39,989 nucleotides of DNA from positions 1 through 39,989 of the forward strand of contig JADGHQ010000020.1 of assembly GCA_019683805.1 (NCBI GenBank). Direction: 5' to 3'. Below are positions 4,938-35,661 of this stretch, one piece after another. The notes beneath the pieces are model-generated. The model saw nothing but the letters and a program-made list of their open reading frames with translations. It ran no database searches and had not been told where the DNA came from. Made by a program: the position numbers and the translations under genes. Numbering within the stretch: the first letter of the stretch is position 1; every line of letters starts with the position of its first letter. Origin of the DNA: Thermoleophilaceae bacterium (GTDB lineage Bacteria; Actinomycetota; Thermoleophilia; Solirubrobacterales; Thermoleophilaceae).

Positions 4938-4967
4938 GCGCGCGGGGCGTACCCGCCGGCGCCAGCC

Positions 4968-5843: not shown

Positions 5844-5921
5844 CGGGCAGTGGAGTTCCCACGCGGGCGGGCAGCGAGGCCTGCGGTGGACGGATGTCCT
5901 ACGCCCGCTCCCGGCGGCGCG

Positions 5922-7388: not shown

Positions 7389-7395
7389 GGCCGAA

Positions 7396-7424: not shown

Positions 7425-7510
7425 CCCAGGCAACGCCTCTGCATGGCGCGCCGCGGCAGGGCGAGAGTAGGCGGCAGGCCCCTCTGCGCCGGCGCCCGGG
7501 CGGGGCGCGG

Positions 7511-10503: not shown

Positions 10504-10711
10504 CTATGCGAGCCCTCCTTCCGCGCCGCCCGAGGCACCCGTGCAGGGCCTCCGGTCGACGCGATCGACGACTGGAGGCAAGCTAGGTCCGCTCGAGCGC
10601 CCGGTCTTTGGACGCGTGTCGGAAATCAGGCCCCGGGCGTTTCGCCCGCCTGTCGAACCGCCGCGGGCTCGATCTTCGCCGAGATCGCCCCGCCGCGGGC
10701 GGCCCGAAAGC
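10504..10711 (-). promoter_or_regulatory. amtB leader region with a short hairpin
   Basis: The 208 bases between the ChaB-type gene and amtB hold a perfect hairpin CGGGCG-TTT-CGCCCG (10634-10648), 64 bases after the upstream stop. It is not followed by a T run on the minus strand, so it may be a weak terminator or part of the amtB leader. The Shine-Dalgarno of amtB is GGAAGGAGG (about 10511-10519 on the plus strand). I could not find a convincing -35/-10 pair. Confidence 0.3.
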
Positions 10712-19346: not shown

Positions 19347-19376
19347 TTGCATACGAGCCGGTACGCGAGGTAGCAT
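19347..19376 (+). promoter_or_regulatory. Putative promoter of the acyl-CoA dehydrogenase/kinase operon
   Basis: TTGCAT (19347-19352) and TAGCAT (19371-19376) are 18 bases apart. A GCATAC hexamer (19349-19354), the half-site seen before the livK and racemase genes, overlaps the -35; 12 bases on is GTACGC, a poor second half. Transcription would start about 30 bases before the gene. Confidence 0.45.
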
Positions 19377-19413
19377 GCGGGCTATCCTTGCCCGCTCGCT
19401 CATGGAGGACCCC

Positions 19414-21761: not shown

Positions 21762-21771
21762 GGGCGACCCG

Positions 21772-21785
21772 GCCCGGCGCCGGGC
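21772..21785. terminator. Possible bidirectional terminator between convergent genes
   Basis: The 14-base palindrome GCCCGGCGCCGGGC lies in the 37-base gap between the kinase and SDR stop codons. It can fold on either strand but has no T run. Confidence 0.4.
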
Positions 21786-21798
21786 GCGGACGTCGGCG

Positions 21799-22584
21799 TC
21801 ACCAGCCGCCGTACGCGAGCCAGCCGCCGTCCACGAGCACGCTGCTGCCGGTGATGTAGGAGGCCGCGTCGGAGGCCAGGAAGGCGACGGCGCGGGCCAC
21901 CTCCTCGGGGCTCCCGAGGCGGCCCAGCGGAGTGCGGCGCTCGAGCACCGACTTGTCGAAGTTGTCGCGGCTCATGCTGACCTGGATGAACTCCGTCGCG
22001 ATGTAGGCCGGGTCGACGGACACCACGCGGACCCCGCGGTCCGCCCACTCGGCGGCGAGCGTCTTCGTGAGCCCGATCAGCCCCGCCTTCGCCGTCGCGT
22101 ACGCGGCGCGGCGGGGCAGCGCGACGTGTCCGACGATCGACGAGACGTTCACGATGACGCCGCGCCCGGCCTCGAGCATGTGGCGCCCGGCGGCCTGGGC
22201 GCAGAGGAAGGGCGCCGTCAGCAGCAGGTCGAGCGTCCTCTCCCAGTCCTCCCGAGGCAGATCCTCGGACGGCGCGATCATGCCGTGGCCGGCGTTGTTG
22301 ACGAGGATGTCGACGCGCCCGAGCTCCTCGACCGCGCGCTCGACGAGCCTCGTGGGACCGTCGGGGGTCGAGAGGTCGGCCGCGACCGCCAGCGCGCTTC
22401 CGCCCTGCGACTCGATCTCCTCTATCACCGGGCGCAGCCGCTCGTCGGCCCGGGCGTTGACGACGACCGTCGCGCCCCAGGCCGCGAGCTCGCGGGCGAT
22501 GGCCCGCCCGATCCCGGCGGATGACCCGGTGACGATCGCCACGCGCTCGTCCAGCGACCACTCCGACCCGTTCCTGCGGCTCAT
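21799..22584 (-). CDS. Short-chain dehydrogenase/reductase
   Basis: This 261-aa classical SDR has a Rossmann fold: the cofactor motif TGSSAGIG, NNAG, catalytic Ser in VNVSSIVG, YxxxK in YATAKAG, and the C-terminal GSSVLVDGGW. The absence of an acidic residue in the expected place after the second strand and the VVVNARADE text suggest NADP(H) or NAD(H) is not decidable by eye. It is last in the catabolic array and could oxidise a hydroxyacyl product or act elsewhere. ATG 22584 has AAGGAG about 10 bases upstream. A longer form from GTG 22629, overlapping the lpd stop (GTGA), adds 15 residues unlike the family but would give coupling. Confidence 0.83.
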   Translation of the reverse strand: MSRRNGSEWSLDERVAIVTGSSAGIGRAIARELAAWGATVVVNARADERLRPVIEEIESQGGSALAVAADLSTPDGPTRLVERAVEELGRVDILVNNAGHGMIAPSEDLPREDWERTLDLLLTAPFLCAQAAGRHMLEAGRGVIVNVSSIVGHVALPRRAAYATAKAGLIGLTKTLAAEWADRGVRVVSVDPAYIATEFIQVSMSRDNFDKSVLERRTPLGRLGSPEEVARAVAFLASDAASYITGSSVLVDGGWLAYGGW

Positions 22585-22625
22585 GTCCGACACGCTCCTT
22601 TCCGTGGACGCGTTGCTCGTCCCGC

Positions 22626-24035
22626 TCACGTGACGACGTGCAGCGGCCGCCCCGCCAGCACCTCCGCCGCCTCGCCGAGCGCCTCGCTCAGGGTCGGGTG
22701 GGCGTGGATCGTGCCGGCGACGTCGTCGGGCGAAGCGACCATCTCGATCGCCAGCGTCCCCTCGGCGACAAGCTCGGAGGCGTGGGGCCCGACGGCGTGC
22801 ACGCCGACGATCCGGTCGCTGGCCCGGTCGGCGACCAGCCGCACGAACCCGTCGCGCTCGCCGAGCGTCCTGGCCCGACCGGAGGCCGCCCAGGGGAACG
22901 TGGACACCTGCACGTCCAGGCCCTCGGCGCGCGCCTCCGCCTCGGTCAGGCCGGCCGTCGCGATCTCGGGATCGCTGAAGACGACGGCGGGGATCGCCGC
23001 CGGGTCGAACTCGGCGGGCTCGCCGCTGAGCGCCTCGGCCGCGACGATCCCCTCGCGCATCGCCTTGTGCGCGAGCGCCGGCCCCGCGACCACGTCGCCG
23101 ATCGCCGCCACGCGCTCGGTCGCCCGACGGTCCGGGCCGACGGGGATGAGCCCGTCGGGACCCACCTGGACGCCGGCCTCCGGCAGGCCGAGATCGTCCG
23201 TGTTCGGCCGCCGCCCGACGGCGACGACCACGCGCTCGGCCGGGACTCGCCGCTCCCCGTCCGGGGTCTCGAGCACGAGCTCGCGGTCACCCAGCTCGCG
23301 CGCCAGCGCGCCGAGGCATAGCTCGATTCCGAGCCCGCGGAGCCGGCGCTCGACGGGCGCAGCCAGCGCCGCGTCCACCGTCGGCAGGATCCGGTCGAGC
23401 GCCTCGACGATCGTCACGCTGGCGCCGAGCTTCGCAAGCGCGGTGCCGAGCTCGAGGCCGATGTAGCCCGCGCCCACCACCGCGACGGACGCCGGGACGG
23501 CGTCGAGCGCCAGCGCGCCCGTCGAGTCGAGGACGCGCTCGCCGTCGAACGGCAGCGCGGCGAGCTCGACCGGGCGCGAGCCGGTGGCGACGATCGCCTG
23601 GCGGAACTCGAGGAAGCGCACGTCGCCGTCCGGCGTGGTGAGCGCGGCGCGGCCGGGCTGGTTGAACCGAAGCGACCCGTGGACGACCCGCACGCCGCGG
23701 CGCGACAAGAGCTGCTCGACGCCGCCGGCGAGCCCGGCGACGATCCCGCGCTTCCACTCCTGGAAGCGCCCCAGGTCCACGGAGACCTCCGGGCAGACGA
23801 GCCCGGCGGCGCCGAGCGCGCGCGTGCGCTCGACGCCCGAGGCGAGCTCGATCAGCGCCTTGGACGGAATGCAGCCGACATGCAGGCACGACCCGCCGAG
23901 CGCTTCCGGGCCTCCGCGCTCCACGAGCGTGACCTCGCGCCCGAGCTGCGCGGCGCGCAGCGCGGCGGCGTAGCCGCCGGGGCCGCCGCCTACCACCAGC
24001 AGGTCGACGGGCTCGGCCAGCTCGCCGACGACCAT
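22626..24035 (-). CDS. lpdA: Dihydrolipoyl dehydrogenase (E3)
   Basis: This 469-aa FAD disulphide oxidoreductase re-oxidises the lipoyl arms of the E2 subunit. The FAD motif is VVGGGPGGYAAA, the redox pair Cys50-Cys55 lies in GGSCLHVGCIPSK, the NAD motif is VVGAGYIGLELG, ATGS and AIGDVVAG are present, and the C-terminal His-Glu dyad is in HAHPTLSEA. The ATG overlaps the E2 stop (ATGA) behind GAGGAGG. An own E3 inside the operon indicates a dedicated complex rather than one sharing the housekeeping E3. The redox-loop Asn of most homologues (CLNVGC) is His here. Confidence 0.93.
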   Translation of the reverse strand: MVVGELAEPVDLLVVGGGPGGYAAALRAAQLGREVTLVERGGPEALGGSCLHVGCIPSKALIELASGVERTRALGAAGLVCPEVSVDLGRFQEWKRGIVAGLAGGVEQLLSRRGVRVVHGSLRFNQPGRAALTTPDGDVRFLEFRQAIVATGSRPVELAALPFDGERVLDSTGALALDAVPASVAVVGAGYIGLELGTALAKLGASVTIVEALDRILPTVDAALAAPVERRLRGLGIELCLGALARELGDRELVLETPDGERRVPAERVVVAVGRRPNTDDLGLPEAGVQVGPDGLIPVGPDRRATERVAAIGDVVAGPALAHKAMREGIVAAEALSGEPAEFDPAAIPAVVFSDPEIATAGLTEAEARAEGLDVQVSTFPWAASGRARTLGERDGFVRLVADRASDRIVGVHAVGPHASELVAEGTLAIEMVASPDDVAGTIHAHPTLSEALGEAAEVLAGRPLHVVT

Positions 24036-25303
24036 CAGCGCGCCTCCTCGAGCAGCAGGACCGGCTGCTCCATCAACTCCACCATCCGCGAGACGAAGGC
24101 GGCGAGCGTGTCGCCGTCCAGCACGCGGTGATCGCCCGAGACCGAGAGCGGGAGGATCGGGCGGATGACCACCTCGTCGCCGCGCGCGACCGGTCGACGC
24201 TCGAGGCGCCCGATGCCGAGGTTCGCGACCTCCGGCGGGTTGATGATCGGCGTCCCGAGCCAGATCCCGAGCGCGCCGAAGTTGTTCACCGTGAAGGTCG
24301 CCCCACGCAGCTGCTCGGGCGCGAGCCGGCGCTCGCGCGCCGCCTCGGCGAGCGCCGCGATCTCGAGCGCAAGCTCAGTCAGCGTCTTGCCGTCGGCGTC
24401 GCGGACCACGGGGACCATCAGCCCGTCCGGCGCCGAGGTGGCGATCCCGATGTGGTAGCTGCCGTGGAGGGCGATCTCCCCGCGCTCCATGTCCACCGAG
24501 GCGTTCGCGTACGGGTGCTCGGCGAGCGCCCGGCAGGTGATCTTCACGATCAGCGGCGTGAGCGTGATCGCCTTGGCGAGCCGCTCGTCGCCGCGCGCCG
24601 CGGCGCGCGCGCGCAGCGCGTCGCGGGCCTCGAGCAGCGCGCCGGCGTCGACCTCGCGGTAGTCGATGACGTGCGGGATCGTCTGCCAGGCCTCGGTGAG
24701 GCGCTGGGCGATCGTCTTGCGCACGCCACGTAAGGGGATCGTCCGCGTCTCGCCGGACGGCGCGGTCCGCGACGCCGCGCTCGACGCGGACGGCGCAGGA
24801 CGCGCGCCCCCGGCGCCCGCCGCCGCCTCCACGTCCTCGCGCAGGATGCGGCCGCCGGGGCCGCTGCCGGCCACCGCGGCGAGGTCGACGCCCAGCTCGC
24901 GCGCACGCCTGCGCGTCGCGGGCGAGGCGAGCGGCCGGCGCGGGGCCGCGGCGCCCGTGGCCGCAGCGGCCGGCTGGGGCGCCGACGCGGCGCCGTCCCC
25001 GCGGCCTGCGGGGACCGGCGCCCTCTCCGGCGGCCTGGACGGCGGCGCGCCCTCCGCGCCCGCTGCGCTCTCGATCACCGCGATCACCTCGCCGACGGGG
25101 ATCTCGTCGCCGGGCTCGAAGCGCAGCTCGGCGACGACGCCGTCCGCCGGGCACGGGAGGACGACGATGGCCTTGTCCGTCTCGACCTCGGCGAGCGGCT
25201 CGTCCTCCTTAACCGGGTCGCCGACCGCGACCTTCCACTCGATGAGCTGGGCGGCATCGATGCCCTCGCCGACGTCAGGGAGCTTGAACTCGTACGCGCT
25301 CAT
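24035..25303 (-). CDS. 2-oxoacid dehydrogenase acyltransferase (E2)
   Basis: The 422-aa protein is the core of the complex. Domains in order: one lipoyl domain (1-78) with lipoyl-lysine Lys44 in ETDKAIV, an Ala/Pro-rich linker, a peripheral subunit-binding domain (about 127-165, PLASPATRRRARELGVDLAA and GRILREDV), another linker, and the catalytic domain (about 195-422) ending with the HxxxDG motif His392/Asp396 in GDHRVLDGD. One lipoyl domain fits PDH or branched-chain type E2. The ATG immediately follows the TAG stop of E1beta, with GGAGG upstream. The acyl group (acetyl, branched or other) is not decidable from sequence. Confidence 0.92.
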   Translation of the reverse strand: MSAYEFKLPDVGEGIDAAQLIEWKVAVGDPVKEDEPLAEVETDKAIVVLPCPADGVVAELRFEPGDEIPVGEVIAVIESAAGAEGAPPSRPPERAPVPAGRGDGAASAPQPAAAATGAAAPRRPLASPATRRRARELGVDLAAVAGSGPGGRILREDVEAAAGAGGARPAPSASSAASRTAPSGETRTIPLRGVRKTIAQRLTEAWQTIPHVIDYREVDAGALLEARDALRARAAARGDERLAKAITLTPLIVKITCRALAEHPYANASVDMERGEIALHGSYHIGIATSAPDGLMVPVVRDADGKTLTELALEIAALAEAARERRLAPEQLRGATFTVNNFGALGIWLGTPIINPPEVANLGIGRLERRPVARGDEVVIRPILPLSVSGDHRVLDGDTLAAFVSRMVELMEQPVLLLEEAR

Positions 25304-26281
25304 CTATGCCTCCATGGCCGTGCGCACCGCCGCGAGCACGCGCTCGGCGTCGGGTAGGTACTGGTGCTCGACCGCGGCGATCGGGTACGGCGTGTCGTAG
25401 GCCGTGACGCGCGCGAGCGGCGCCTCGAGGCTCCAGAACGCCTCCTGCTGGACGGTCGCGACGACCTCCGCGCCGAAGCCGCTCGTGTACGGCGCCTCGT
25501 GGACGACGACGACGCGCCCGCAGGCCGCGGCCGCCTCGCGCAGGGCGTCGACGTCGAGCGGGACGAGCGTGCGCAGGTCGAGCACGCCGCAGGAGATCCC
25601 CTCGCGCGCGGCGAGCTCGGCCGCCTGCTCGGCGACCACCACGGCCGCGCTCCACGCCACAATCGCGACGTCGCTCCCCTCGCGCGCGCCGCGCGCGCGC
25701 CCGAACGGGACCGTGTGCTCGCCCTCCGGGACGTCGTCCCTGATCAGGCGGTACCCGCGCAGCGGCTCGCAGAACAGCACGGGATCGGGGTCGCGCAGGG
25801 CCTGCGTGAGCAGGCCCTTCGCGTCCGCCGCGGTGGCCGGCATCGCGATCTTGAGCCCTGGCGAGTTCGCGTACTTCGCCTCGTGCGCGTCGGAGTGGAG
25901 CTCCGGCGTACGGACGTTCCCGCCGAACGGGGCGCGGATCACCATCGGCATCCCGAACCGCCCTTGGGAGCGGAACCGCATGCGCGCCACCTGGCCTTCG
26001 AGCTGGTGGAACGCCTGGCTCCCGAAGCCCAGGAACTGGAGCTCGGGCACCGGGATGAGGCCGCTCGCGGCGAGGCCGACCGCCGCGCCGATGATCACTC
26101 CCTCGGCGAGCGGCATGTCGACGACGCGATCCTCCCCGTAGCGCTCCTGCAGGCCGTCGGTCGCGCGGAACACGCCGCCGTTGTGCCCGATGTCCTGGCC
26201 GAGCAGGATCACGCGCTCGTCGCGGGCCATCTCGGCGTCGAGGGTCGAGCGGATCGCCTCGACCATGTTCATCACCGCCAT
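25304..26281 (-). CDS. 2-oxoacid dehydrogenase E1 component, beta subunit
   Basis: The 325-aa protein is the partner of E1alpha in ThDP-dependent decarboxylation. Typical features are EAIRSTLDAEMARDERVILL, GQDIGHNGGVFRATDGL, the ThDP-activating Glu in DMPLAEGVIIGAAVG, PELQFLGF, and HEAPYTSGFGAEV in the C-terminal transketolase domain. It aligns with both PdhB and BkdA2-type proteins. The start ATG overlaps the E1alpha stop (ATGA) behind GAGGAGG. The near identity of this junction to the E2/E3 junction suggests similar coupling strength. Confidence 0.92.
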   Translation of the reverse strand: MAVMNMVEAIRSTLDAEMARDERVILLGQDIGHNGGVFRATDGLQERYGEDRVVDMPLAEGVIIGAAVGLAASGLIPVPELQFLGFGSQAFHQLEGQVARMRFRSQGRFGMPMVIRAPFGGNVRTPELHSDAHEAKYANSPGLKIAMPATAADAKGLLTQALRDPDPVLFCEPLRGYRLIRDDVPEGEHTVPFGRARGAREGSDVAIVAWSAAVVVAEQAAELAAREGISCGVLDLRTLVPLDVDALREAAAACGRVVVVHEAPYTSGFGAEVVATVQQEAFWSLEAPLARVTAYDTPYPIAAVEHQYLPDAERVLAAVRTAMEA

Positions 26282-27393
26282 CAGCGCACCTCCTCGCCCG
26301 CCGTCGCCCGTTCGCGCTGGGCGCGCACCCGCGGCGGCGGATCCGCATAGACGTGCTCGAAGATGTGCCGCCGGTCGGCGGCGGGGTGCGCCTCCGCCTC
26401 CGCCACGGCGGCGTTCACCTCGTCCATGAGCTGCGAGCGGAGCTGCTCCTCCTCGGCCTCGGACAGGAGCCGGCGCGCGCGCAGGTACGCCCGCACGCGC
26501 ACGATCGGGTCGAGCTCGCGCCGCGCGCGCAGCTCGTCGGGGTCGACGTAGCGCGTCGGGTCGTCGGCGGTGTTGTGCGGCCCGAGCCGGTAGGTGCGCG
26601 CCTCGATCAGCGTCGGGCCCTCGCCGGCACGCGCCCGCTCCACGGCCCAGCGCGCCGCCTCGTGCACCGCGAACAGGTCGTTGCCGTCGACCAGCACGCC
26701 CGGGAACCCGTAGCCGGGCGCGCGCAGCGCGAAGCTCTGCGCGGCGGTCTGCTTCGCCACCGGCGTCGAGATCGCCCAGCCGTTGTTCTGCAGCAGGAAG
26801 ACGACCGGCGCGCGCCTGACGCCCGCGAGGTTCATCGCCTCGTGGGCGTCGCCCTCCGAGGAGGCGCCGTCGCCGAAGTAGGTCATCACCGCGGCGTCGC
26901 TCCCCTGCTGACGCAGGCCCCACGCGAGCCCCACCGCGTGCGGGATCTGCGCGGCCAGCGAAATCTGGAAGGGCAGCACGCGCACGCCCTCGGGCATCTG
27001 GTTGCCGATCGGGTGGCCGCGGAAGTAGAGGAAGAAGCGGGTGAGCGGATATCCCTGGCGGAGCATCGCCGGCAGCTCGCGGTACTGCGGCACCACCCAG
27101 TCGCGCGCGGGGTCGAGCGCGAACGCCGAGCCGACGACCGACGCCTCCTGGCCCTCGACTGTCGAGAAGGTCCCGAGCCGGCCCTGCCGCTGCAGCGAGA
27201 AGGCGCGCTGGTCGACCGTGCGGGAGAGCAGCATCAGCCGGAAAGCGGCGAGCAGCTCCTCGTCGGACAGCGACGGCCGGTAGCCCTCCGCGAGGGTGCC
27301 GTCGGGCGCCAGCAGCGTCCAGGGCTCGAGCGACGCCGGCTCGGCCAGAGCCTGCGCCGGCGGAGCGGGCGGAGCGGGCGCGCGCCGGCTCAC
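26281..27393 (-). CDS. 2-oxoacid dehydrogenase E1 component, alpha subunit
   Basis: The 370-aa protein decarboxylates a 2-oxoacid with ThDP. The ThDP motif runs from GDGASSEGD to the NN of LLQNNGWAIS. LQRQGRLGTFSTVEGQEASV and RYGPH-like RLGPHNTADDPTRY (phosphorylation-loop region) match Bacillus-type PDH E1alpha and related branched-chain enzymes. The N-terminal ~25 residues are Pro/Ala-rich. The GTG start at 27393 overlaps the stop of the D-amino-acid dehydrogenase gene (GTGA). That tight coupling implies that the 2-oxoacid made by DadA/RidA is its substrate. Confidence 0.9.
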   Translation of the reverse strand: MSRRAPAPPAPPAQALAEPASLEPWTLLAPDGTLAEGYRPSLSDEELLAAFRLMLLSRTVDQRAFSLQRQGRLGTFSTVEGQEASVVGSAFALDPARDWVVPQYRELPAMLRQGYPLTRFFLYFRGHPIGNQMPEGVRVLPFQISLAAQIPHAVGLAWGLRQQGSDAAVMTYFGDGASSEGDAHEAMNLAGVRRAPVVFLLQNNGWAISTPVAKQTAAQSFALRAPGYGFPGVLVDGNDLFAVHEAARWAVERARAGEGPTLIEARTYRLGPHNTADDPTRYVDPDELRARRELDPIVRVRAYLRARRLLSEAEEEQLRSQLMDEVNAAVAEAEAHPAADRRHIFEHVYADPPPRVRAQRERATAGEEVR

Positions 27394-28637
27394 GACCGCA
27401 CCTCCATCCCGCGCAGGTCGATGTCGGGCTTGCGGCGCTGGAGCAGGTCGGCGGCGATCTTCGCCGTGCCGCAGGCCATGGTCCAGCCCATGTGCCCGTG
27501 GCCCGTGTTGTAGAGCAGGTTCCCGTGCCGTCCGTAGCCGAGGATCGGCGGCCCGTCCGGCGTCATCGGGCGCAGGCACGCACGGTACTCGCCGGCGGAG
27601 TAGTCCGCGGCGTTCGGGAACAGCTCGCGCGCGGCGCGCATGATGTTGTTGAAGTCGCGCTCCTGCCAGCCTCGCCCGTAACCGGCGAACTCGGCGGTCG
27701 ACGACATGCGCAGGCGGTCGCCGAAGCTCGACCACGCCACGAGCGTGGCCTCGTCGACGCCTCCGTGCGACGGCGGCTCGTGGGCGTCGCGGATCGGGAA
27801 CGTCACCGAGTACCCCTTCGCGGGGTACATCGGCAGCTGCTGGCCGACGGTCTTCGAGATCGCCGGGCTGTGCACCCCCAGCGAGAGCACGTAGGCGTCC
27901 GCGCGCAGACGGCCGCCGGAGGTGCGCACGGCCGCGATGTGGTCGCCCACGGCCTCGAGCGCCTCCACGCGGGTTCCGAGGCGGAAGCGCACGCCCCTGC
28001 GCTTGCACGCCTCCGCGAGCGCGTTCGTGAAGCGCTCGCAGTCGCCGCTGAAGTCGTCCTTGCCGTAGATCGCCCCGGCGATGCGGTCGCGCACGGGCGC
28101 GAAGGCGGGCTCGCGCTGCACGCAGCCGTCGGCGTCGAGGACCTCCTGGTCCTGGCCGTGGTCCTGGAGCAGCCGCATCTTGCGCGCGCCCTCCTCGAGC
28201 TCGCGCGCGTCCCGATAGAGGTAGAAGACGCCGCGCGCGCCCTCGCCGTACTCGATCGCCTCCTCGGCCGCGAGCGCCTCGAGCTGCGCCTGGCTGTACT
28301 GGCAGAGGCGCAGCTTGACGAGCGTGTTGCGCTGCGCGCGATCGCTCGGGCACTCGCGCAGGAAGCGCAGGCCCCAGCGGACGAGCTCGGGGTCGAGGCG
28401 CGGCTTGAGGCGAATGGCGGTCTCGGCGCCGAGCAGGGAGCGCACGAGCATCTTCGGCGCGGCGGGCGACGCCCAGGCGAACGAGTGCCCGGGCGCGATC
28501 AGCCCGGCGTTGCCCGAGCTGGCCCAGCCCGCGAGCCGGTCCTCCTGCTCGACCACCTCGACCTCGTGGCCGTCTCGGGCGAGGTAGTAGGCGGTCGTCA
28601 CGCCCGCCACTCCGCCCCCCAGGACGATGATCTTCAC
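27390..28637 (-). CDS. dadA: D-amino-acid dehydrogenase, DadA-type
   Basis: This 415-aa FAD-dependent DAO-family enzyme oxidises D-amino acids to imino acids, probably passing electrons to quinones at the membrane. The FAD motif is VLGGGVAGVTTAYYLARDGH. DadA features include WASSGNAGLIAPGHSFAW, IYGKDDFSGDCERFTNALAE, PMYPAKGYSVTF, RACLRPMTPDGPPILG and the final NTGHGHMGWTMACGTA. The GTG start follows GGGAGGTAG. It lies between ridA and the 2-oxoacid dehydrogenase genes. Which D-amino acid it prefers is unknown; DadA enzymes are generally broad. Confidence 0.9.
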   Translation of the reverse strand: MKIIVLGGGVAGVTTAYYLARDGHEVEVVEQEDRLAGWASSGNAGLIAPGHSFAWASPAAPKMLVRSLLGAETAIRLKPRLDPELVRWGLRFLRECPSDRAQRNTLVKLRLCQYSQAQLEALAAEEAIEYGEGARGVFYLYRDARELEEGARKMRLLQDHGQDQEVLDADGCVQREPAFAPVRDRIAGAIYGKDDFSGDCERFTNALAEACKRRGVRFRLGTRVEALEAVGDHIAAVRTSGGRLRADAYVLSLGVHSPAISKTVGQQLPMYPAKGYSVTFPIRDAHEPPSHGGVDEATLVAWSSFGDRLRMSSTAEFAGYGRGWQERDFNNIMRAARELFPNAADYSAGEYRACLRPMTPDGPPILGYGRHGNLLYNTGHGHMGWTMACGTAKIAADLLQRRKPDIDLRGMEVRS

Positions 28638-28666
28638 GATGCGCTACCTCCCGCCCGGCGGTCCGC

Positions 28667-29062
28667 TCAGGAGGACAGGACGGCCGTCGCCTGGATCTCG
28701 ACCACCAAGCCCTCGATGAGGAGGTCGGAGCGGAGCGTCGCGCGCGCCGGGCGGTGGTCGCCGAACTTCTCCGCCCAGCCCTCGTTGAAGGCGGCGAAGT
28801 GCGAGAGATCGGTGAGCCACACGGTCGTCGTCGCGATGTCGGAGAGCGAGCCGCCGACCTCCTTCAGGAGCGTCTCGATGCGCTCGAGCGTGGCGACGGT
28901 CTGGGCGCGCGCATCGCCGGGCGCGATCACGTTGTTGTCCTTGTCGAGCGCGACCTGGCCCGCGATGAAGACCAGGTTGCCGGCGACGGTCGCCTGCGAG
29001 TAGGGCGCGATCGCGGGGCCCAGGGAGTCGGGGTTGATGGCGGTGATGCCGTTCTTGGTCAT
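28667..29062 (-). CDS. ridA: RidA-family imine deaminase
   Basis: The 131-aa YjgF/YER057c/UK114 protein would form a trimer that hydrolyses 2-imino acids to 2-oxoacids and ammonia. APYSQATVAGNLVFIAGQVA is the family start; the catalytic Arg is in HRPARATL and the partner Glu in VEIQATA. It precedes dadA by 29 bases. RidA next to an imine-forming oxidase speeds release of the 2-oxoacid and protects PLP enzymes from damage. The ATG follows AGGAG. Confidence 0.92.
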   Translation of the reverse strand: MTKNGITAINPDSLGPAIAPYSQATVAGNLVFIAGQVALDKDNNVIAPGDARAQTVATLERIETLLKEVGGSLSDIATTTVWLTDLSHFAAFNEGWAEKFGDHRPARATLRSDLLIEGLVVEIQATAVLSS

Positions 29063-29089
29063 GGTGCTCCTGTTCGTTGTCGGGTTCGC

Positions 29090-29893
29090 CTAGAAGAAGC
29101 CGGTGTAGGGCGTGCGAACAACCGCGTGGTGGACGTAGTTGATGAAGCCGATCCAGTCGAAGACGGGCAGGCCCGTGGCGCGCTGGATCGCCGCGCCGTA
29201 GGGGGGCATGTCCGAGCACTCGAGGAGGAAGGCGCGGACCGCCGGCTCGTCCTCGACCAGCTCGAGGGCGGTCGCGACCATCTCCGCCTCCATCCGCTCG
29301 ACGTCCATCTCGCCGGTCTCCTCGAGGATCACGGAGCGGAAGTGCTCCTTGTCCTCGAGCCCGCGGAAGACGCAGCGCTCGGCGATCTCCGGCGTGATGC
29401 CGACGGTGCTCAGCAGCCGGTCGCTGACGGTGCGGCCGTTGGCGACGAGCACCGCGAGCTTGTCCTGCCGGCGCAGCATGCTCAGCACGAGCGGCACCTG
29501 CATGAGGCTCGACAGGAAGACGGGCACGTCGACGGCGTCGGCGACCGCCTGCTGGTAGGCGCCCATGTACGCGCAGTCGCCCGTGATCGCCCGCACGCCC
29601 TGGTCGGCGAGCTGGCGCGCCGCCTCGACGAAGCTCGGCGCTATCGCGGGGTCCTGGCGGTTGATGACCGCGTCGCCGGTCGCGCCCGGGACGAGCAGGT
29701 ACTGGACCGGGAAGTCGTACGACGAGGCGTTGCCGACGTCGCCGGGAACGAACGGGATGTTGCACTCGAGCATCAGCACCCCGATCGAGGTGCCGTAGCT
29801 GACCCGCCCTTGCGTCGCCTTGAAGGTCCCGCCGCCCGGCGCGGCCGCGGGGCGCGCTTGGGACCGCCTGGCGGAGCTCGTGGACAGTGTCAT
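29090..29893 (-). CDS. Aspartate/glutamate racemase-superfamily protein
   Basis: The 267-aa protein belongs to the PLP-independent two-cysteine superfamily (Asp/Glu/hydantoin racemases). The two candidate acid/base cysteines are Cys107 in TGDCAYMG and Cys226 in LLECSDMPPYG, so it looks like a racemase rather than a one-Cys arylmalonate decarboxylase. The first ~30 residues are extra. Its place before ridA and dadA suggests it converts an imported L-amino acid or derivative to the D-form, or the reverse. The substrate is unknown. The ATG follows AGGAGA; an 83-base gap with a direct repeat separates it from livF. Confidence 0.78.
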   Translation of the reverse strand: MTLSTSSARRSQARPAAAPGGGTFKATQGRVSYGTSIGVLMLECNIPFVPGDVGNASSYDFPVQYLLVPGATGDAVINRQDPAIAPSFVEAARQLADQGVRAITGDCAYMGAYQQAVADAVDVPVFLSSLMQVPLVLSMLRRQDKLAVLVANGRTVSDRLLSTVGITPEIAERCVFRGLEDKEHFRSVILEETGEMDVERMEAEMVATALELVEDEPAVRAFLLECSDMPPYGAAIQRATGLPVFDWIGFINYVHHAVVRTPYTGFF

Positions 29894-29912
29894 CGCATCT
29901 TCTCCTGTGTCT

Positions 29913-29931
29913 GCATACCGCTTGGCATACC
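29913..29931 (-). promoter_or_regulatory. Direct repeat GCATACC-N5-GCATACC before the racemase gene
   Basis: Two exact heptamers, 12 bases apart (plus-strand reading), lie 20-38 bases before the racemase ATG, in the gap between the transport and catabolic genes. On the coding strand the motif is GTATGC-N6-GTATGC. It matches repeats at the livK promoter and at the gntR start, which suggests a common regulator. No convincing -35/-10 pair is seen around it. Confidence 0.55.
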
Positions 29932-29951
29932 GTGCTTGGGCGAAGTGGCTG

Positions 29952-29989
29952 CCGGGAGGCGCGGCTTCATCGGCGCTCAGGCCCCCCGG
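29952..29989 (-). other. Hairpin at the livF 3' end
   Basis: CCGGGAGGC (29952-29960) and GCCCCCCGG (29981-29989) pair with one mismatch across a 20-base loop that includes the livF stop. It could be a partial terminator or stability element that lowers expression of the catabolic genes relative to the transporter genes. No T run follows. Confidence 0.25.
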
Positions 29990-30729
29990 GAAGCGGTCGC
30001 GGGGGTCGCGTCCGGCACGCCGCCGAGGTAGAGCTCGGAGACGCGCTGGTCATCGAGCAGGGTGGGAGCATCCCCGTCGAGCGCGACCTCGCCGGTGACC
30101 ATCACGAGGCCCCGGTCGGACACCGCGAGCGACTGCGCGGCGTTCTGCTCGACCACGAGGATCGTCACGTCCTCGCGCTCGCGGATCTCGGCCAGCATCC
30201 CGAACAGCTGCTCGACGGCCGCGGGCGAGAGCCCGGCCGACGGCTCGTCCAGCAGCAGATGGCGCGGGCGCGTCATCAGCGCCCGCGCGATCGCGAGCAT
30301 CTGCCGCTCGCCCCCGGAGAGCGAGTCGGCGCGCGCCCGCGAGCGTTCCTCGAGGCGCGGGTAGAGCCGGAGCAGCTCGCGCGTGCGCGCGCGGCGCTCC
30401 GAGCGCGAGAGGCGGGCGCCGCCGATCTCCAGGTTCTCGTGGACGCTCAGCGGACCGAAGACGTTGTCGAGCTGAGGCACGTACCCGAGGCTGTGGGCGA
30501 GCGTGCGCTCGTGGGGCGGCACGCGGGTGACGAGCTCGCCGTCGACCGCGACCTCGCCGCGCCAGATCGAGACGAACCCCATGATCGACTTGAGCAGCGT
30601 CGACTTGCCCGAGCCGTTGGGGCCGAGCACGGTGACGATCGAGCGGTCCTCGACGGTCACCCCGACCCCCTTGAGGATCGGGACGCCGGCGACGTAGCCG
30701 GCCTCGATGTCGCGGATCTGAATGCTCAC
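29977..30729 (-). CDS. livF: Branched-chain amino acid-type ABC transporter ATPase LivF
   Basis: This 250-aa ATPase is one of two for a LivFGHMK importer. Walker A is GPNGSGKST, signature LSGGERQM, Walker B HLLLDEPSAGLSP and switch VEQNAAQSL, the last typical of LivF. The C-terminal tail (GVPDATPATASRGA) is slightly extended. The GTG start overlaps the livG stop (GTGA). The class imports branched-chain amino acids, but members also take up other amino acids, amides and urea; neighbours here suggest an amino acid that can be oxidised via its D-form. Confidence 0.92.
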   Translation of the reverse strand: MSIQIRDIEAGYVAGVPILKGVGVTVEDRSIVTVLGPNGSGKSTLLKSIMGFVSIWRGEVAVDGELVTRVPPHERTLAHSLGYVPQLDNVFGPLSVHENLEIGGARLSRSERRARTRELLRLYPRLEERSRARADSLSGGERQMLAIARALMTRPRHLLLDEPSAGLSPAAVEQLFGMLAEIREREDVTILVVEQNAAQSLAVSDRGLVMVTGEVALDGDAPTLLDDQRVSELYLGGVPDATPATASRGA

Positions 30730-31538
30730 GTGCGCACCTCCGGAGGAGGCGCGGTCGCGCCTGGCGCGCGCCGCGCCGCGGTCGGCCGGACCGAGCCGAG
30801 GTAGGCCTCGACGACCCGCTCATCCTCGGCGAGCTCCGAGGGGGCGCACTCGGCGATCACGCGGCCCTTGTCGAGCACGTAGACCCGGTCGCAGAGCTCC
30901 GCGACGAAGTTCATGTCGTGCTCGACGATCAGCAGCGTCGTCCCGCGGGCGCGAATCGTGCGCAGCCGCTCGGCCAGCGTGCGGCGCAGCGTCGGGTTCA
31001 CGCCCGCCGTCGGCTCGTCGAGGAGCAGCATGCGCGGATCGCCCATCAGCGCCGCGCCGAGCGAGAGCAGCTTCTGCTGCCCGCCGGAGAGCATGCCCGC
31101 GGCGTGGTGCTCGAGCGGGAGCAGGCTCAGCTCCTCGAGCAGGCCCCGCGCGCGCTCGACCGCGGCGCGCTGCTCGGCGCGCACCCGGCGCGCCCTGAAG
31201 ACCGAGCGCCAGGCAGAGGAGCCCTCGGGCAGCCGGGCGCCCGCGAGCATGACCTCCAGCAGGCTCATGCGAGTGGGCTGCGCCGCGAGCTGGAAGGTCC
31301 GGCGCAGCCCGAGTTGCGAGACGTCCCACGGCTCGAGCCGGTGGATCGGGCGCCCCTCGTAGGTGACGCTCCCGCCGTCGGGCTCGAGGAACCCGGAGAG
31401 CACGTTGAGCAGCGTCGACTTGCCCGACCCGTTCGGGCCGACGAGCGCGACGATCTCGCCCTCGCGGATCTCGAGCGACACCCCGTCGAGCGCCGCCAGC
31501 CCGCCGAAGTGCTTGCGCACGCCCTCAGCTGCGAGCAT
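30726..31538 (-). CDS. livG: Branched-chain amino acid-type ABC transporter ATPase LivG
   Basis: The 270-aa protein is the second ATPase. Walker A is GPNGSGKST, the signature is LSGGQQKL and Walker B is MLLLDEPTAGVNP, followed by VEHDMNFV, the hallmark of LivG. RRTFQLAAQPTRMSLLEVML is the Q-loop region. The C-terminal ~20 residues (PTAARRAPGATAPPPEVRT) are a Pro/Ala-rich extension. The ATG overlaps livM by 14 bases. Confidence 0.92.
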   Translation of the reverse strand: MLAAEGVRKHFGGLAALDGVSLEIREGEIVALVGPNGSGKSTLLNVLSGFLEPDGGSVTYEGRPIHRLEPWDVSQLGLRRTFQLAAQPTRMSLLEVMLAGARLPEGSSAWRSVFRARRVRAEQRAAVERARGLLEELSLLPLEHHAAGMLSGGQQKLLSLGAALMGDPRMLLLDEPTAGVNPTLRRTLAERLRTIRARGTTLLIVEHDMNFVAELCDRVYVLDKGRVIAECAPSELAEDERVVEAYLGSVRPTAARRAPGATAPPPEVRT

Positions 31539-32421
31539 CGATCCTCCTGAGCCGCTCCGGCACGAGCCCGCCCGACCGGAAGTACAGGAACCCGAGCAGC
31601 GCCGCCCCCACCACCAGGATCCGCAGCCCGCCCGCGTTCTCCGACGGGATGTCGAAGACGTCGTCGATGAAGCGCGTGACGTCGAAGAGGAGCTGGACGA
31701 TCGCCGCGCCCGCGATCACGCCGAAGGCGTTCCCGAGCCCGCCGACGACCACCATGGTCCACACCAGGAAGGTCGCGAACGGCTCGAGCTGGCCGGGCCC
31801 GATGAACGAGATGTAGTGCGTGTAGAGAGAGCCGGCGAGGGCCGCCATGGGGGCGCTGATCGCCATCACGCGCACCTTCGCGCCGACCACGTCGTGCCCC
31901 AGGGAGGCGGCGAGATCGGGCTGCTCCCGCACGAGGCGCAGCACCCGCCCGAACTGCGCGCCGGTGACGCGCTGCGACACCCACCAGCAGAGCGCGAGGA
32001 CGAGCGCGGCCAGCCCGAGCCAGGCGAGGTCGCGGCTCTGCGGCCCGAGCCCGGAGAAGAAGCCCGGGACCGCGCTGATCCCCTGCGGGCCGCGCGTCAG
32101 CGAGTCGGTGTTGAGCGCGACGAGCCGCAGCAGCTCGGCGAGAGCGAGCGTCGCGATCGCCCAGTACTCGGCCGCGAGCGTGCGGCCGAGGCGACCGACC
32201 GCGGCGCCGGCGGCGGCCGCGAGCACGAGCCCGATCGCCATCCCGAGCGGCCACGGCGCGCCGTGCATCGTCGAGATGCCGGTCGCGTAGGCGCCGATCC
32301 CGAAGAACCCGACCAGGCCGAAGTTCAGGAGCCCCGTCGCGCCCGCCTGCAGGTTGAGGCTGATCGCGAGGATGCCGTAGATCGCCGCGACGACCGCGAC
32401 GCCGAGCAGGAAGTCAAGCAC
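31525..32421 (-). CDS. livM: Branched-chain amino acid-type ABC transporter permease LivM
   Basis: The 298-aa permease has about eight membrane helices. ISLNLQAGATGLLNFGLVGF and FFGIGAYATGI are the LivM start pattern; GHDVVGAKVRVMAISAPMAA is the cytoplasmic coupling loop, and MVVVGGLGNAFGVIAGA the late conserved segment. The GTG start overlaps livH by 8 bases. It forms the membrane channel with LivH. Confidence 0.92.
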   Translation of the reverse strand: MLDFLLGVAVVAAIYGILAISLNLQAGATGLLNFGLVGFFGIGAYATGISTMHGAPWPLGMAIGLVLAAAAGAAVGRLGRTLAAEYWAIATLALAELLRLVALNTDSLTRGPQGISAVPGFFSGLGPQSRDLAWLGLAALVLALCWWVSQRVTGAQFGRVLRLVREQPDLAASLGHDVVGAKVRVMAISAPMAALAGSLYTHYISFIGPGQLEPFATFLVWTMVVVGGLGNAFGVIAGAAIVQLLFDVTRFIDDVFDIPSENAGGLRILVVGAALLGFLYFRSGGLVPERLRRIDARS

Positions 32422-33307
32422 GGCGGGCCTCCCTTCCGAACAGGCCCTGCGGCCTGTAGAGCAGGACGACGACGAGCATCACGAACCCGACCGCCGCGCG
32501 GTAGTCGACCGGAACGAAGCCGTCGCCGCCGACGAGCGAGCCGAAGTTGATCTTCAGCACCAGGTTCTCGACCAGCGCGAGCAGGTAGGCGGCGGCGACG
32601 GCGCCCCCCACGCTGCCGAGTCCGCCGAGCAGGGCCGCCGCGAAGACCGGCAGCAGGAGGCCGAACCCCATGTCGAGGCTCACCTGCGTGTCCATCGCCA
32701 GCAGCACTCCCGCGAGCGCGCCCAGCGCACCCGCGATGAACCAGGTCACGTCCGTGATCCGCTTGCGGTTGATGCCGGCGGCGGCGGCGAGCTCCGGGTT
32801 CGCGGACACCGCCCTGATCGACCGGCCGAGCGGGGTGAGCCGCAAGACGGCGATCAGGACGGCGAGCGCGACGGCGCTGATCGCGACCAGCCGCAGCTGC
32901 GTCGGCGTGACCAGCGCCCCGCCGATGTCGACCCCCCGCTCGAGCGGCAGATCGAGCTCCTTCGGGTCCGGCCCGGTGACAGTCTGGATCACCGCCCGCA
33001 CGAGGATGGACAGCGCGAGCGACCCGATCATCGCCATCGCGGCGCTGGAGCGGAGCAGCCGGACGAAGACCACGCGGTAGACGGCGACCGCGAGCAGTCC
33101 GACGGCGACGATGGCGATCAGCGCCTGCAGGAGGATGCCGACGCCGGCGACCGAGGCGACCAGGACCATCCCGTAGGCCCCGAGCGTGGCGAACTCGACC
33201 TGGGCGATGTTGGCGAAGCGGAGCACGCCGAACACCAACGTGAGGCCCACGGCGAGCAGCGCCAGCTCGGAGCCGCGGACGAGCGAGTCGACGATGACCT
33301 GTCCCAT
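32414..33307 (-). CDS. livH: Branched-chain amino acid-type ABC transporter permease LivH
   Basis: The 297-aa permease shows the LivH pattern: SELALLAVGLTLVFGVLRFA near the N-terminus, NIAQVEFATLGAYGM, PLGRSIRAVSANPELAAAAG as the coupling loop, and AALLGGLGSVGGAVAAAYLL late. About eight membrane helices are visible. The ATG at 33307 lies 34 bases after the livK stop. Confidence 0.92.
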   Translation of the reverse strand: MGQVIVDSLVRGSELALLAVGLTLVFGVLRFANIAQVEFATLGAYGMVLVASVAGVGILLQALIAIVAVGLLAVAVYRVVFVRLLRSSAAMAMIGSLALSILVRAVIQTVTGPDPKELDLPLERGVDIGGALVTPTQLRLVAISAVALAVLIAVLRLTPLGRSIRAVSANPELAAAAGINRKRITDVTWFIAGALGALAGVLLAMDTQVSLDMGFGLLLPVFAAALLGGLGSVGGAVAAAYLLALVENLVLKINFGSLVGGDGFVPVDYRAAVGFVMLVVVLLYRPQGLFGREARRA

Positions 33308-33341
33308 GACGGCGAGTCGTGAGCGGTCCGGGCAGGTGCGC

Positions 33342-34541
33342 TCAGGCCTCGGGCCCGCGCACCTCGCCTTCCTCGGACACCTTGCCGTCCTTCATCGTCG
33401 CGATCAGGTACGGCTGCTCGCTGCGCTGGTTGTGCGCGTCGAACGAGATCGCTCCCGTGACGCCCTCGTAGCGCTTGCCGACCGTGGCGAGCGCGTCGCG
33501 GATCTTGGCGGGATCCACGCTGCCGGCCTGGTTGATCGCCTTCGCGGCCATCGTGACGGCGTCGTAGGTGTAGCCGCTGAAGCTGGTCCGGAATCCCTCG
33601 CCGTACTTCGCCTCGTAGGCGGACTTGTACGCCGAGCCGTTCGGGCCGATGTAGTTGACGTCCATGCCCTGCTGGCCGTCGACGGCCCTCGGGTCGGAGT
33701 CGGTAGTGCACATCGTGAGGTAGATCCCGAAGAACTTCCTCGGGTCCATCCCGAGCTGGTACGCCTCCTTGTTGATCGTCGCGGCCTCCTTGCCGTAGGC
33801 CGAGTAGATGACGATGTCGGCGTTCGCGGACTTCAGCCGCTGAAGCTCCTGGCGGTAGTCGGACTGGCCCTCCGTGTAGAGGAGCGACTGGACGATCTGC
33901 CCGCCGCTCTGCTGGAGCGCCGCGCGCGTCGCCTTCAGGAGGCCGGTGCCGTATGCGTTGTTCGGCGCGAGGAAGGCGACCTTGTGGTAGCCGGCCTGCA
34001 CGAGCTTCTCGGCCGTGAACTTGCCGGCGATGTTGTCGAGGCCGATGACCGAGAAAGAGAAGTCGCCGATCTTGGCGATGTCCGGCGAGGACGAGCCGGC
34101 GTTGATGTGGACGACCTTGCGCTGCTGGAGGTACTGCCCGATCGGGATCGTGTTGCCCGACGAGTACTCGCCGATGACGACCGGGGTCTTGTCGACCGAC
34201 ACCAGCTTGCGCGCTGCGTTCACGGCGGATGCGGCCTGGCCCTCGGAGTCCTCGACCTTCACGACGAGCTTCTTCCCGAGCACGCCCCCGCCCGAGTTGA
34301 TCTTGTCGACCGCGAGCTCGATCCCTCGCTGCTGGTCCTTGCCGATCGTGGCGCTCGCCCCGGTGAGCGGGAGCACGGCTCCGATCGTGACCTGACCCTT
34401 GAGCTCGGGGTTCACCTTCGGCGTGGCCTGGGCGGCGCTCGACTTCGAGTCGTCGCCTGAGCCGCAAGCGGCCAGACCGACGGTGAGCGCAGCGACGGCC
34501 GCGGTGGCGACCGCGCGGCGCGCGGCATGACGAAACGGCAT
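33342..34541 (-). CDS. livK: Branched-chain amino acid-type ABC transporter substrate-binding lipoprotein LivK
   Basis: The 399-aa extracellular binding protein has a lipoprotein signal (RRAVATAAVAALTVGLAAC, lipidated Cys26) and then a type I periplasmic-binding fold: VTIGAVLPLTGASATIGKDQ, RGIELAVDKINSGGGVLGKK, VVIGEYSSGNTIPIGQY, and HINAGSSSPDI. The ligand pocket segments (YSSGNT, NAYGTG) are of the LivK/leucine-binding type, but the ligand cannot be fixed. The ATG at 34541 follows GGAGGGAG. A longer open frame to 34610 would run across the promoter and is rejected. It is the first gene of the 13-gene unit. Confidence 0.92.
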   Translation of the reverse strand: MPFRHAARRAVATAAVAALTVGLAACGSGDDSKSSAAQATPKVNPELKGQVTIGAVLPLTGASATIGKDQQRGIELAVDKINSGGGVLGKKLVVKVEDSEGQAASAVNAARKLVSVDKTPVVIGEYSSGNTIPIGQYLQQRKVVHINAGSSSPDIAKIGDFSFSVIGLDNIAGKFTAEKLVQAGYHKVAFLAPNNAYGTGLLKATRAALQQSGGQIVQSLLYTEGQSDYRQELQRLKSANADIVIYSAYGKEAATINKEAYQLGMDPRKFFGIYLTMCTTDSDPRAVDGQQGMDVNYIGPNGSAYKSAYEAKYGEGFRTSFSGYTYDAVTMAAKAINQAGSVDPAKIRDALATVGKRYEGVTGAISFDAHNQRSEQPYLIATMKDGKVSEEGEVRGPEA

Positions 34542-34581
34542 CTCTCTCTCCCTCCAACCTGTCGGTATGGGACGGCGGGGA

Positions 34582-34610
34582 GTTCTACATACAACTTCGC
34601 ATACTGTCAA
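34582..34610 (-). promoter_or_regulatory. livK promoter with operator-like direct repeat in the spacer
   Basis: On the minus strand a perfect -35 TTGACA (34610-34605) is followed by a 17-base spacer and -10 TAGAAC (34587-34582). The spacer contains GTATGC-N6-GTATGT, the same 12-base-period repeat as before the racemase gene. A protein bound there would cover both polymerase contacts. Transcription would start near 34575, giving a leader of about 35 bases. Confidence 0.7.
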
Positions 34611-34674
34611 GTGTGCGAGTTGGAATCCGAGATTGCGTGCAGTCGTCGAGCGTTCGGCGTCCGCTCGCTACTGA

Positions 34675-34712
34675 GCGCGAAGACGCGCAGACTCCGCGGG
34701 CCCGAAGGCCCG
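34675..34712 (-). terminator. Tandem hairpins after the gntR gene
   Basis: On the minus strand CGGGCC-TTCG-GGCCCG (34712-34697), a stem closed by the very stable UUCG tetraloop, begins 19 bases after the gntR stop. It is followed by a second hairpin GCGCG-TCTT-CGCGC (34688-34675). No T run is present. Together they probably separate gntR from the livK promoter. Confidence 0.55.
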
Positions 34713-34730
34713 GCGCGGCGGAACCGGCGC

Positions 34731-35426
34731 TCAGCGGAGCTTCGAGAGCGTGACGTCGCGCGCCTCGAGGATGTGGCGCACCATCGCCTGCTCGGCTGCG
34801 CGCGAGTCGCGCGCCTGCAGGGCCCGGACGATCTCGTCGTGGCCCTCGATCGAGGCGAGCGCCTCTTCCTCGGTGTAGATGGCGGCGATGCGGTAGTTGA
34901 AGAAGAACTCGCGGTTCTGCCGCACGAGGTGGCGGAGGCGCTCGTTTCCCGACGCCTCGACGATCGCGTCGTGGAAGGCGTCGTTCACCTCGACGAGGCG
35001 CGTTCGGGGCGCCTCGATCAGCTCCGGCTCCGCGACACCCTCGAGCTCGGCGATGTGCGCGATCTGCTCGTCCGTGGCGCGGGCGGCGGCGAGGAACGCG
35101 GCCATCCCCTCGAGCGCCGCGCGAACCTCGTAGATCTCGCTGATCTCCTCGGGAGTGTGCTCGCGCACGACCCAACCGCGCCGACGGCTGGTCACAAGGC
35201 CCTCCGCTGCGAGCCTCGCCAGGCTCTCGCGGAGGGGCGTGCGGCTCACGTTGAGCCACTCGGCGAGCTCGGCCTCGACGAGCCGCTCGTTGGGACGGAA
35301 CTCACCGCGGACGATCGCGTCCCTGAGCCGCTCGTAGGCTCCTGCTGCCAGCGAGACACGCCTGCCGTCGGACGCCGCGGACCGGCGACGGGGCGCGCCC
35401 GCCTCCGTGCGCGCTCGTCCTGGCAT
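34731..35426 (-). CDS. GntR-family regulator with FCD domain
   Basis: The 231-aa protein has a winged helix (about 25-95): YERLRDAIVRGEFRPNERLV, AEWLNVSRTPLRESLARLAA, then EGLVTSRRRGWVVREHTP. The FCD ligand domain follows (about 105-225), with metal-type residues in NDAFHDAIVEASGNERL, GHDEIVRALQARD and MVRHILE. FCD regulators usually bind an organic acid or amino acid and repress transport and catabolic genes. It lies directly upstream of livK in the same direction. A -10-like TATACT (35439-35434) ends 7 bases before the ATG, so the message may be leaderless. A GTATAC-N6-GCATGC repeat overlaps this region, as expected for self-control. Confidence 0.85.
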   Translation of the reverse strand: MPGRARTEAGAPRRRSAASDGRRVSLAAGAYERLRDAIVRGEFRPNERLVEAELAEWLNVSRTPLRESLARLAAEGLVTSRRRGWVVREHTPEEISEIYEVRAALEGMAAFLAAARATDEQIAHIAELEGVAEPELIEAPRTRLVEVNDAFHDAIVEASGNERLRHLVRQNREFFFNYRIAAIYTEEEALASIEGHDEIVRALQARDSRAAEQAMVRHILEARDVTLSKLR

Positions 35427-35440
35427 GCCAGCGAGTATAC
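35423..35440 (-). promoter_or_regulatory. gntR -10 element and repeat across the start codon
   Basis: The minus strand reads GTATAC-N6-GCATGC. TATACT inside it is a good -10, and the ATG of gntR lies inside the second hexamer. No good -35 is seen (GTGCGA or TGCGAA at about the right place). The 12-base period is the same as at livK and the racemase gene, each half differing from GTATGC by one base. Confidence 0.5.
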
Positions 35441-35661
35441 GGAGTGGCGTGGCGGCTTCGCACCTTCCCGCGACGGCAGCGACTCGCTGCTGCCGCGCCC
35501 CTGCGCCCGCCTTCTCGAGCGCGCCCCCCTCGTGACCGAGTACGGTCGGGGGAGACAGCCCGCCGGTCGGTCCGGAGGGGCTATGGAGGACGGTGTGACA
35601 GACCCCGCACGCAGCCAGTCAGCGGCCCCCGCCGGGTCGACGGATCCGCGACCTCCAGCGC
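35441..35661. other. Region upstream of the unrecognised 295-aa gene
   Basis: GGAGGGG followed by an ATG at 35583 gives a good translation signal, opening a 71-residue frame (MEDGVTDPARSQ) that runs to 35798 in another frame than the downstream gene. Either it is a small or spurious frame, or the true gene starts here and a frameshift separates the parts. No promoter is clear. Confidence 0.3.

Follow-up and report, generated by a model that had tools for sequence, protein, structure and literature searches.

A one-strand gene array in a Thermoleophilaceae bacterium that may take up an amino acid and oxidise it through its D-form

Can a bacterium take up an amino acid and carry it through its D-enantiomer to an acyl-CoA with the genes of a single array? 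This question is raised by a locus of a Thermoleophilaceae bacterium (GenBank assembly GCA_019683805.1, contig JADGHQ010000020.1, positions 1 to 39,989), and these 39,989 nucleotides are called the window here. The array consists of 14 genes on the - strand, running from 35426 down to 21799: an FCD-type regulator, a LivKHMGF importer, a predicted racemase, RidA, DadA, the E1alpha, E1beta, E2 and E3 components of a 2-oxoacid dehydrogenase complex, and an SDR oxidoreductase. We read it, with a probability of about 0.6, as an inducible catabolic operon that arose by the joining of two older modules and leads from uptake through D-form oxidation to acyl-CoA. Module 1 would comprise the FCD regulator, LivKHMGF, racemase, RidA and DadA, and module 2 would comprise E1-E2-E3-SDR. 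Because each of the two recurs separately, the window gives the appearance of a fusion, in which a D-amino-acid cassette was set ahead of an SDR-E1-E3 module of the kind found in this order.

Gene content and junctions

The features are as follows, in the direction of the array.

34731..35426, - strand: GntR/FCD regulator (PF07729, PF00392), the probable substrate sensor of the operon
34582..34610, - strand: promoter-like site before livK (TTGACA-17-TAGAAC), the sole match in the window
33342..34541, - strand: LivK-type substrate-binding protein (PF13458, Peripla_BP_6, 1e-60), 53-65% identical to the LivK of plasmid cassettes
32414..33307, - strand: LivH permease (open reading frame, 42-48% to LivH of loci L078-L080 and L082)
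31525..32421, - strand: LivM permease (open reading frame, 42-55% to LivM of the same loci)
30726..31538, - strand: LivG ATPase (open reading frame, 47-60% to LivG of the same loci)
29977..30729, - strand: LivF ATPase (open reading frame, 49-54% to LivF of the same loci)
29090..29893, - strand: predicted two-Cys cofactor-independent racemase, PRK07475/NF005679 subfamily (NF005679; C107 and C226 invariant)
28667..29062, - strand: Rid-family imine deaminase, RidA (PF01042; Arg107)
27390..28637, - strand: DadA-type D-amino-acid dehydrogenase (NF001933; relatives of 45-64% identity adjoin racemase-type genes elsewhere)
26281..27393, - strand: 2-oxoacid dehydrogenase E1alpha (TIGR03181; its GTG start overlaps the dadA stop)
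25304..26281, - strand: 2-oxoacid dehydrogenase E1beta (PF02779/PF02780)
24035..25303, - strand: dihydrolipoyl acyltransferase E2 (PF00364, lipoyl; PF02817, E3-binding; PF00198, catalytic)
22626..24035, - strand: dihydrolipoyl dehydrogenase E3 (TIGR01350, 456 bits, cut-off 409)
21799..22584, - strand: SDR oxidoreductase (PF13561), likely starting at ATG 22584 with a ribosome-binding site in a frame that opens at 22629; relatives of 55-65% stand directly before E1alpha in L036 and L038-L040

LivH, LivM, LivG and LivF were identified by similarity, being 42-60% identical to genes annotated as Liv in other records. DadA scores 415 bits against NF001933, above the cut-off of 383, and RidA keeps Arg107 of the PAR motif of Rid deaminases, which is invariant among the Rid proteins of the cassettes described below.

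The initial annotation had placed all genes on one strand in this order, with junctions from livK to E3 that overlap or nearly touch and with the E1alpha start inside the dadA stop, and all of this is borne out. Spacings from livK to SDR range from -14 to +83 bp. In the upper part they are +189 bp (FCD-livK), +34 (livK-livH), -8 (livH-livM), -14 (livM-livG), -4 (livG-livF) and +83 (livF-racemase), followed by +27 (racemase-ridA), +29 (ridA-dadA) and -4 (dadA-E1alpha). In the lower part they are -1 (E1alpha-E1beta), 0 (E1beta-E2) and -1 (E2-E3). The E3-SDR spacing depends on the start chosen, being +41 for ATG 22584, which has a good ribosome-binding site, or -4 for GTG 22629. At the central junction dadA and E1alpha share the 4 bp GTGA, and the ribosome-binding site of E1alpha is good. 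The GC content at third codon positions is 0.905-0.977 across the array genes with no break at dadA/E1alpha; this evenness means that no assembly chimera is visible there.

As for transcription, the FCD gene may have a separate transcript, since the 189-bp gap between it and livK contains TTGACA-17-TAGAAC on the operon strand. This pattern was picked post hoc, after the sequence had been read, and lies outside the stricter consensus matches; it is therefore a lead only. Consensus promoters and terminators within 21500-35700 do not exceed chance, and RNA folding 3' of FCD is unremarkable when compared to shuffles (z -0.85).

Proposed route and substrate

In the route that we propose, LivKHMGF would import a neutral amino acid and the racemase would interconvert its enantiomers, so that both could enter as the D-form. 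Membrane-linked DadA would oxidise the D-form to a 2-imino acid, with electrons going to the membrane, and RidA would speed the hydrolysis of the imine to a 2-oxo acid and ammonia. By decarboxylation of the 2-oxo acid, E1-E2-E3 would form acyl-CoA together with CO2 and NADH. The SDR gene keeps company with E1-E3, and its product is probably active on a hydroxy or oxo acid of the same pool. We infer co-transcription, each of these reactions, which way racemisation runs, and that material passes from DadA to E1.

The substrate is probably aliphatic as well as neutral. Our best guesses are alanine or the aliphatic branched-chain amino acids, because E1alpha is of the Bacillus pyruvate dehydrogenase type and the solved chains closest to LivK are leucine/isoleucine/valine (LIV)-binding proteins. 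E1alpha scores 424.3 bits against TIGR03181, the model for that type (cut-off 411.4), and 287 bits against the B. stearothermophilus pyruvate dehydrogenase vs 224 bits against human 2-oxoisovalerate dehydrogenase. Bacillus-type pyruvate dehydrogenase takes both pyruvate and branched 2-oxo acids. Aromatic amino acids may also be substrates, and are kept in view because the analogous oxidoreductases near the plasmid cassettes are of an arylpyruvate-type family.

Recurrence of the importer, Rid and DadA genes

The first half of the array is a member of a recurrent, apparently unnamed cassette, found across phyla. LivKHMGF, DadA, Rid and an EutA-like racemase occur together on plasmids of Azospirillum ramasamyi (L078), Caballeronia (L079), Neorhizobium (L080) and Burkholderia cenocepacia (L082). 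In this order of loci, identity to the window is 65%, 55%, 56% and 53% for LivK and 50%, 46%, 49% and 52% for DadA. An FCD-type regulator is also present in L078, L080 and L082. In Cupriavidus (L081) the racemase, Rid and DadA come with two FCD-type regulators and without Liv genes. Within the window's own order, L046 contains DadA, an EutA-like racemase and genes for LivK, LivH and LivM, and livG begins there before the sequence is masked. No publication describing a LivKHMGF-Rid-DadA cassette was found among open-licence papers.

L078, L079 and L081 each have, close to these genes, one for a giant 2-oxoacid:ferredoxin oxidoreductase of the indolepyruvate ferredoxin oxidoreductase family, and the one that was scanned scores 1617 bits against NF009589. 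Enzymes of this type decarboxylate 2-oxo acids to acyl-CoA, and it is plausible, by analogy, that they are the functional counterpart of E1-E3. A 2-oxoacid decarboxylating enzyme near three proteobacterial loci suggests selection for this step.

Exchange of enzymes beside DadA

Four enzyme types adjoin relatives of the window DadA (46-64% identity): PRK07475 (L015), EutA-like (L046), PF05544 (L073) and a fold-II enzyme dependent on pyridoxal phosphate (PLP; L071). If the role of this slot is to provide the D-enantiomer, unrelated enzymes would be expected to replace one another in it. The window racemase and the EutA-like protein of L046 have no real similarity and fit different NCBIfam models. 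In the breakdown of 5-hydroxyectoine, EutA is taken to act as a racemase (PMC5924519). We call the cassette racemases EutA-like, and not EutA, because they score under the EutA cut-off. The L071 enzyme is of the serine/threonine dehydratase type and overlaps dadA by 4 bp; it could instead be a dehydratase.

These exchanges lead to a wider proposal, which we hold tentatively and at somewhat less than even odds. A cross-phylum catabolic system, so far undescribed, would have a constant core of LivKHMGF, Rid, DadA and an FCD/GntR regulator, with two variable slots that set the substrate. The racemase slot would be filled by a PRK07475, EutA-like, proline-racemase type or PLP fold-II enzyme, and the decarboxylase slot by a ferredoxin oxidoreductase or an E1-E3 complex. 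The window would be the version with a fused lipoate-dependent complex.

On the Caballeronia plasmid NZ_CP071131.1, a PRK07475 racemase (L060, 4986-5762) and the EutA-like racemase (L079, 6585-7376) lie ~13 kb apart, flanking the indolepyruvate oxidoreductase and Liv genes.

The same genes could also serve a variant of the proposed route with the opposite entry point. D-amino acids, for example from peptidoglycan, would be imported and scavenged, with the racemase channelling part to the L-form while DadA and E1 burn the rest. DadA is specific for D-forms, which fits this account. It is needless, though, to keep a racemase if only D-forms enter, and most cassettes seen do have a gene of racemase type; nor is the enantiomer preference of LivK readable from its sequence. 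Bacteria are described for which D-Val and D-Leu support better growth than the L-forms do (PMC4836201), a point in favour of D-form import. We consider this entry point rather unlikely, and keep to a route in which both enantiomers may be used.

The predicted racemase

The initial annotation had described a PLP-independent two-Cys racemase in place of DadX; the two Cys and the absence of DadX are borne out. The protein scores 283.6 bits against NF005679 (PRK07475), above the cut-off of 231, and the array has no DadX. Both C107 and C226 are kept in 18/18 aligned members, a diverse set in which the others are 28-70% identical and come from actinobacteria and proteobacterial plasmids. The context of C107 is GDCAY (xxCGF in most others) and that of C226 is LECSDMPPY. 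Against PF01177 the score is 30.8 bits, slightly under the cut-off of 31.

By its sequence we assign the protein to the Asp/Glu/hydantoin superfamily and not to the proline-racemase family (PF05544; proline/hydroxyproline racemase), as PF05544 matches nothing in the genome. A sequence search for a solved homologue gave none at E<=0.1. The structural model, built from four close sequences, is poor (pLDDT 57, TM about 0.3-0.4) and supports the superfamily only; the folds closest to it are those of arylmalonate decarboxylase and of hydantoin, glutamate and aspartate racemases.

Close relatives are rare, being present in 5/232 genomes of the order (own genome included) and 5/396 genomes of the phylum sample, with 4 loci in the species-genome collection. 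In L015 a DadA of 64% identity is followed by a racemase of 60%, and the racemase of both L013 and L014 is preceded by an FCD regulator of 43-45% identity. A DAO-family flavoprotein gene lies on the same strand within 100 bp in 9/21 racemase loci (L015, L050, L054, L056-L059, L062, L063), as counted with a profile built partly from these same loci. A Rid gene is within 6 kb in 3/21. The 21 loci are a non-random set, with plasmid matches taken at even ranking steps and annotated records preferred.

The gene is also found in other surroundings. In L048 (G511:C1, 8156-11700) a PRK07475-type gene (9744-10523) sits between dop-like and prcB-like genes, named by eye, of a proteasome/pupylation operon. 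In L047 (G195:C1, 8402-10520) it overlaps the start of a same-strand gene that by eye is histidine/aromatic ammonia-lyase-like, and the racemase is possibly feeding this lyase. On the Paracoccus and Sinorhizobium plasmids of L062 and L063 (~3000-8500) it is beside UbiD, UbiX, an FAD oxidoreductase, a (2Fe-2S) protein and a second FAD oxidoreductase. Finally, in Leisingera caerulea (L054, 11495-14705) an annotated arylmalonate decarboxylase gene and a gene with an amino-acid adenylation domain lie within a few kb of an FAD oxidoreductase-PRK07475 pair.

The PRK07475 protein might be another enzyme that abstracts an alpha proton, such as a lyase, isomerase or decarboxylase, and prepare a non-standard substrate for DadA. 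The top fold match of the weak model to arylmalonate decarboxylase is in line with this, as is the occurrence of relatives by UbiD/UbiX genes or in a proteasome-type operon. On the other side, both Cys are invariant, as in racemases, and wild-type arylmalonate decarboxylase has one Cys; other racemase families also occupy the same place beside relatives of the window DadA. PRK07475 is the bacterial subfamily nearest the algal dimethylsulfoniopropionate (DMSP) lyase Alma1 (PMC10349084), a sister-group relation that favours a non-racemase activity. Bacterial homologues are reported to be without DMSP lyase activity (PMC10349084), and a role as DMSP lyase was rejected on this ground. We find a non-racemase activity distinctly unlikely, and retain racemisation as the predicted function.

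Recurrence of the E1-E2-E3-SDR genes

The second half of the array is conserved within the order. In four genomes of another family (L036, L038-L040), SDR (55-65%), E1alpha (70-75%), E1beta (75-80%) and E2 occur together. E3 is also present in L036 and L040, and L038 and L039 end at contig edges. The gene set is the same but SDR stands before E1alpha in these loci, whereas in the window it follows E3. None of them has DadA, Rid or a racemase. In Rhodococcus ruber the order is E1alpha-E1beta-E2-E3-SDR, and in L037 the E1-E2 genes come after genes that by eye are GlcD/E/F-like and FAH-type.

Near the SDR-E1-E3 relatives of L040 (3585-13500) and L037 (15187-17666) there are genes for a LIV-type importer, UPF0261, PEP_hydrolase (PF09370), cupin and metallo-beta-lactamase-fold proteins, which points to some catabolic pathway. 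In the window, genes for an acyl-CoA dehydrogenase and an APH-type phosphotransferase (19375-21761) overlap by 1 base and converge with SDR; they could act on the downstream acyl-CoA.

Are the two halves metabolically linked at all? The cassette may have been inserted before a resident SDR-E1-E3 unit whose substrate is a different 2-oxo acid, or pyruvate of any origin, with the 4-bp overlap being accidental. SDR-E1-E3 does form a separate module, both within the order and outside it, and is found elsewhere beside GlcD/E/F-like, LIV, UPF0261 and PEP_hydrolase genes, and DadA and the racemase are rare in the order. However, the dadA/E1alpha overlap is of the translational-coupling kind, with a good ribosome-binding site, and three proteobacterial loci carry a different 2-oxoacid decarboxylating enzyme nearby. 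We regard two unlinked neighbours as unlikely, and the fused operon remains our preferred reading.

Several observations weigh against the fused operon, some of which bear on the join. Searched for through the racemase in species-genome contigs, the array gave 4 loci (two of them 4-kb contigs), with E1-E3 in none over the length of sequence available, and no other genome was found to have the array complete. DadA is present in the flanks (about 1.5 kb) of 0/40 E1alpha loci, and SDR-E1-E3 relatives occur with other upstream genes. The cassette rule is not universal either, because in L083 DadA comes with a different Liv set and without racemase or Rid; L072 likewise has a DadA relative without a racemase-type neighbour. 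No characterised PRK07475 member was found in the literature, and amino-acid racemisation by this protein is suggested by its family and neighbourhood. Lastly, two family searches (E1alpha, Pyr_redox_dim) of the genome, a draft of 134 contigs, gave 7 E1alpha loci vs 3 Pyr_redox_dim loci, one of which is close to another E1-E2 set. Given these counts, and since relatives have E1-E3-SDR as a separate module, E3 may be shared with other complexes.

The initial annotation thus stands in part. The closed route that it had proposed is still the best reading and gains strength from comparison, in that the import, racemisation, oxidation and deamination half recurs across phyla and three loci have a decarboxylating 2-oxoacid oxidoreductase nearby, but no second example of the full order was found. 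The racemase-ridA-dadA-E1-E2-E3 order that it suggested seeking in other genomes is conserved as two halves and was nowhere found complete. A lack of conserved order in relatives, which it had named as a refutation, therefore applies to the array as a whole and not to either half. It had also claimed a dedicated complex with its own E3; the E1-E2-E3 genes are present, but their dedication is doubtful in view of the paralogue counts.

Comparison with known systems

If the reading is true, there are bacteria in which an amino acid is degraded all the way by a route through its D-enantiomer that uses cofactor-free racemases, and the PRK07475 racemase subfamily gains a first function. Furthermore, with racemase and decarboxylase swapped around a constant importer-DadA-Rid core, a comparison of a few variants can test which substrate is used.

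Among described systems the nearest is the Pseudomonas dad locus (dadR, dadA, dadX, dadY; PMC9714295), which has in common a racemase, DadA and a Rid protein in one locus. In P. aeruginosa, DadA releases an imine that is removed by the Rid protein DadY (PMC9714295). The differences lie in the other parts. Pseudomonas DadX depends on PLP, whereas the array racemase is a cofactor-free PRK07475 protein; the classic dad operon has an AsnC-type DadR, and the array a GntR/FCD regulator. Neither an importer nor a 2-oxoacid dehydrogenase complex is listed for the described Pseudomonas locus, and the array has both.

Alma1 is an algal DMSP lyase; the window racemase belongs to the same superfamily branch and keeps both Cys, but nothing points to DMSP as the substrate. 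The proteobacterial plasmid cassettes (L078, L079, L080, L082) resemble the window in importer, Rid, DadA and FCD/GntR regulator (FCD-type in L078, L080 and L082). They differ in having an EutA-like racemase and mostly divergent genes, and in being without E1-E2-E3. What sets the window apart from the dad locus is the predicted cofactor-free PRK07475 racemase, with a dedicated importer and a joined lipoate-dependent dehydrogenase complex, and the join from DadA to the complex was seen only here.

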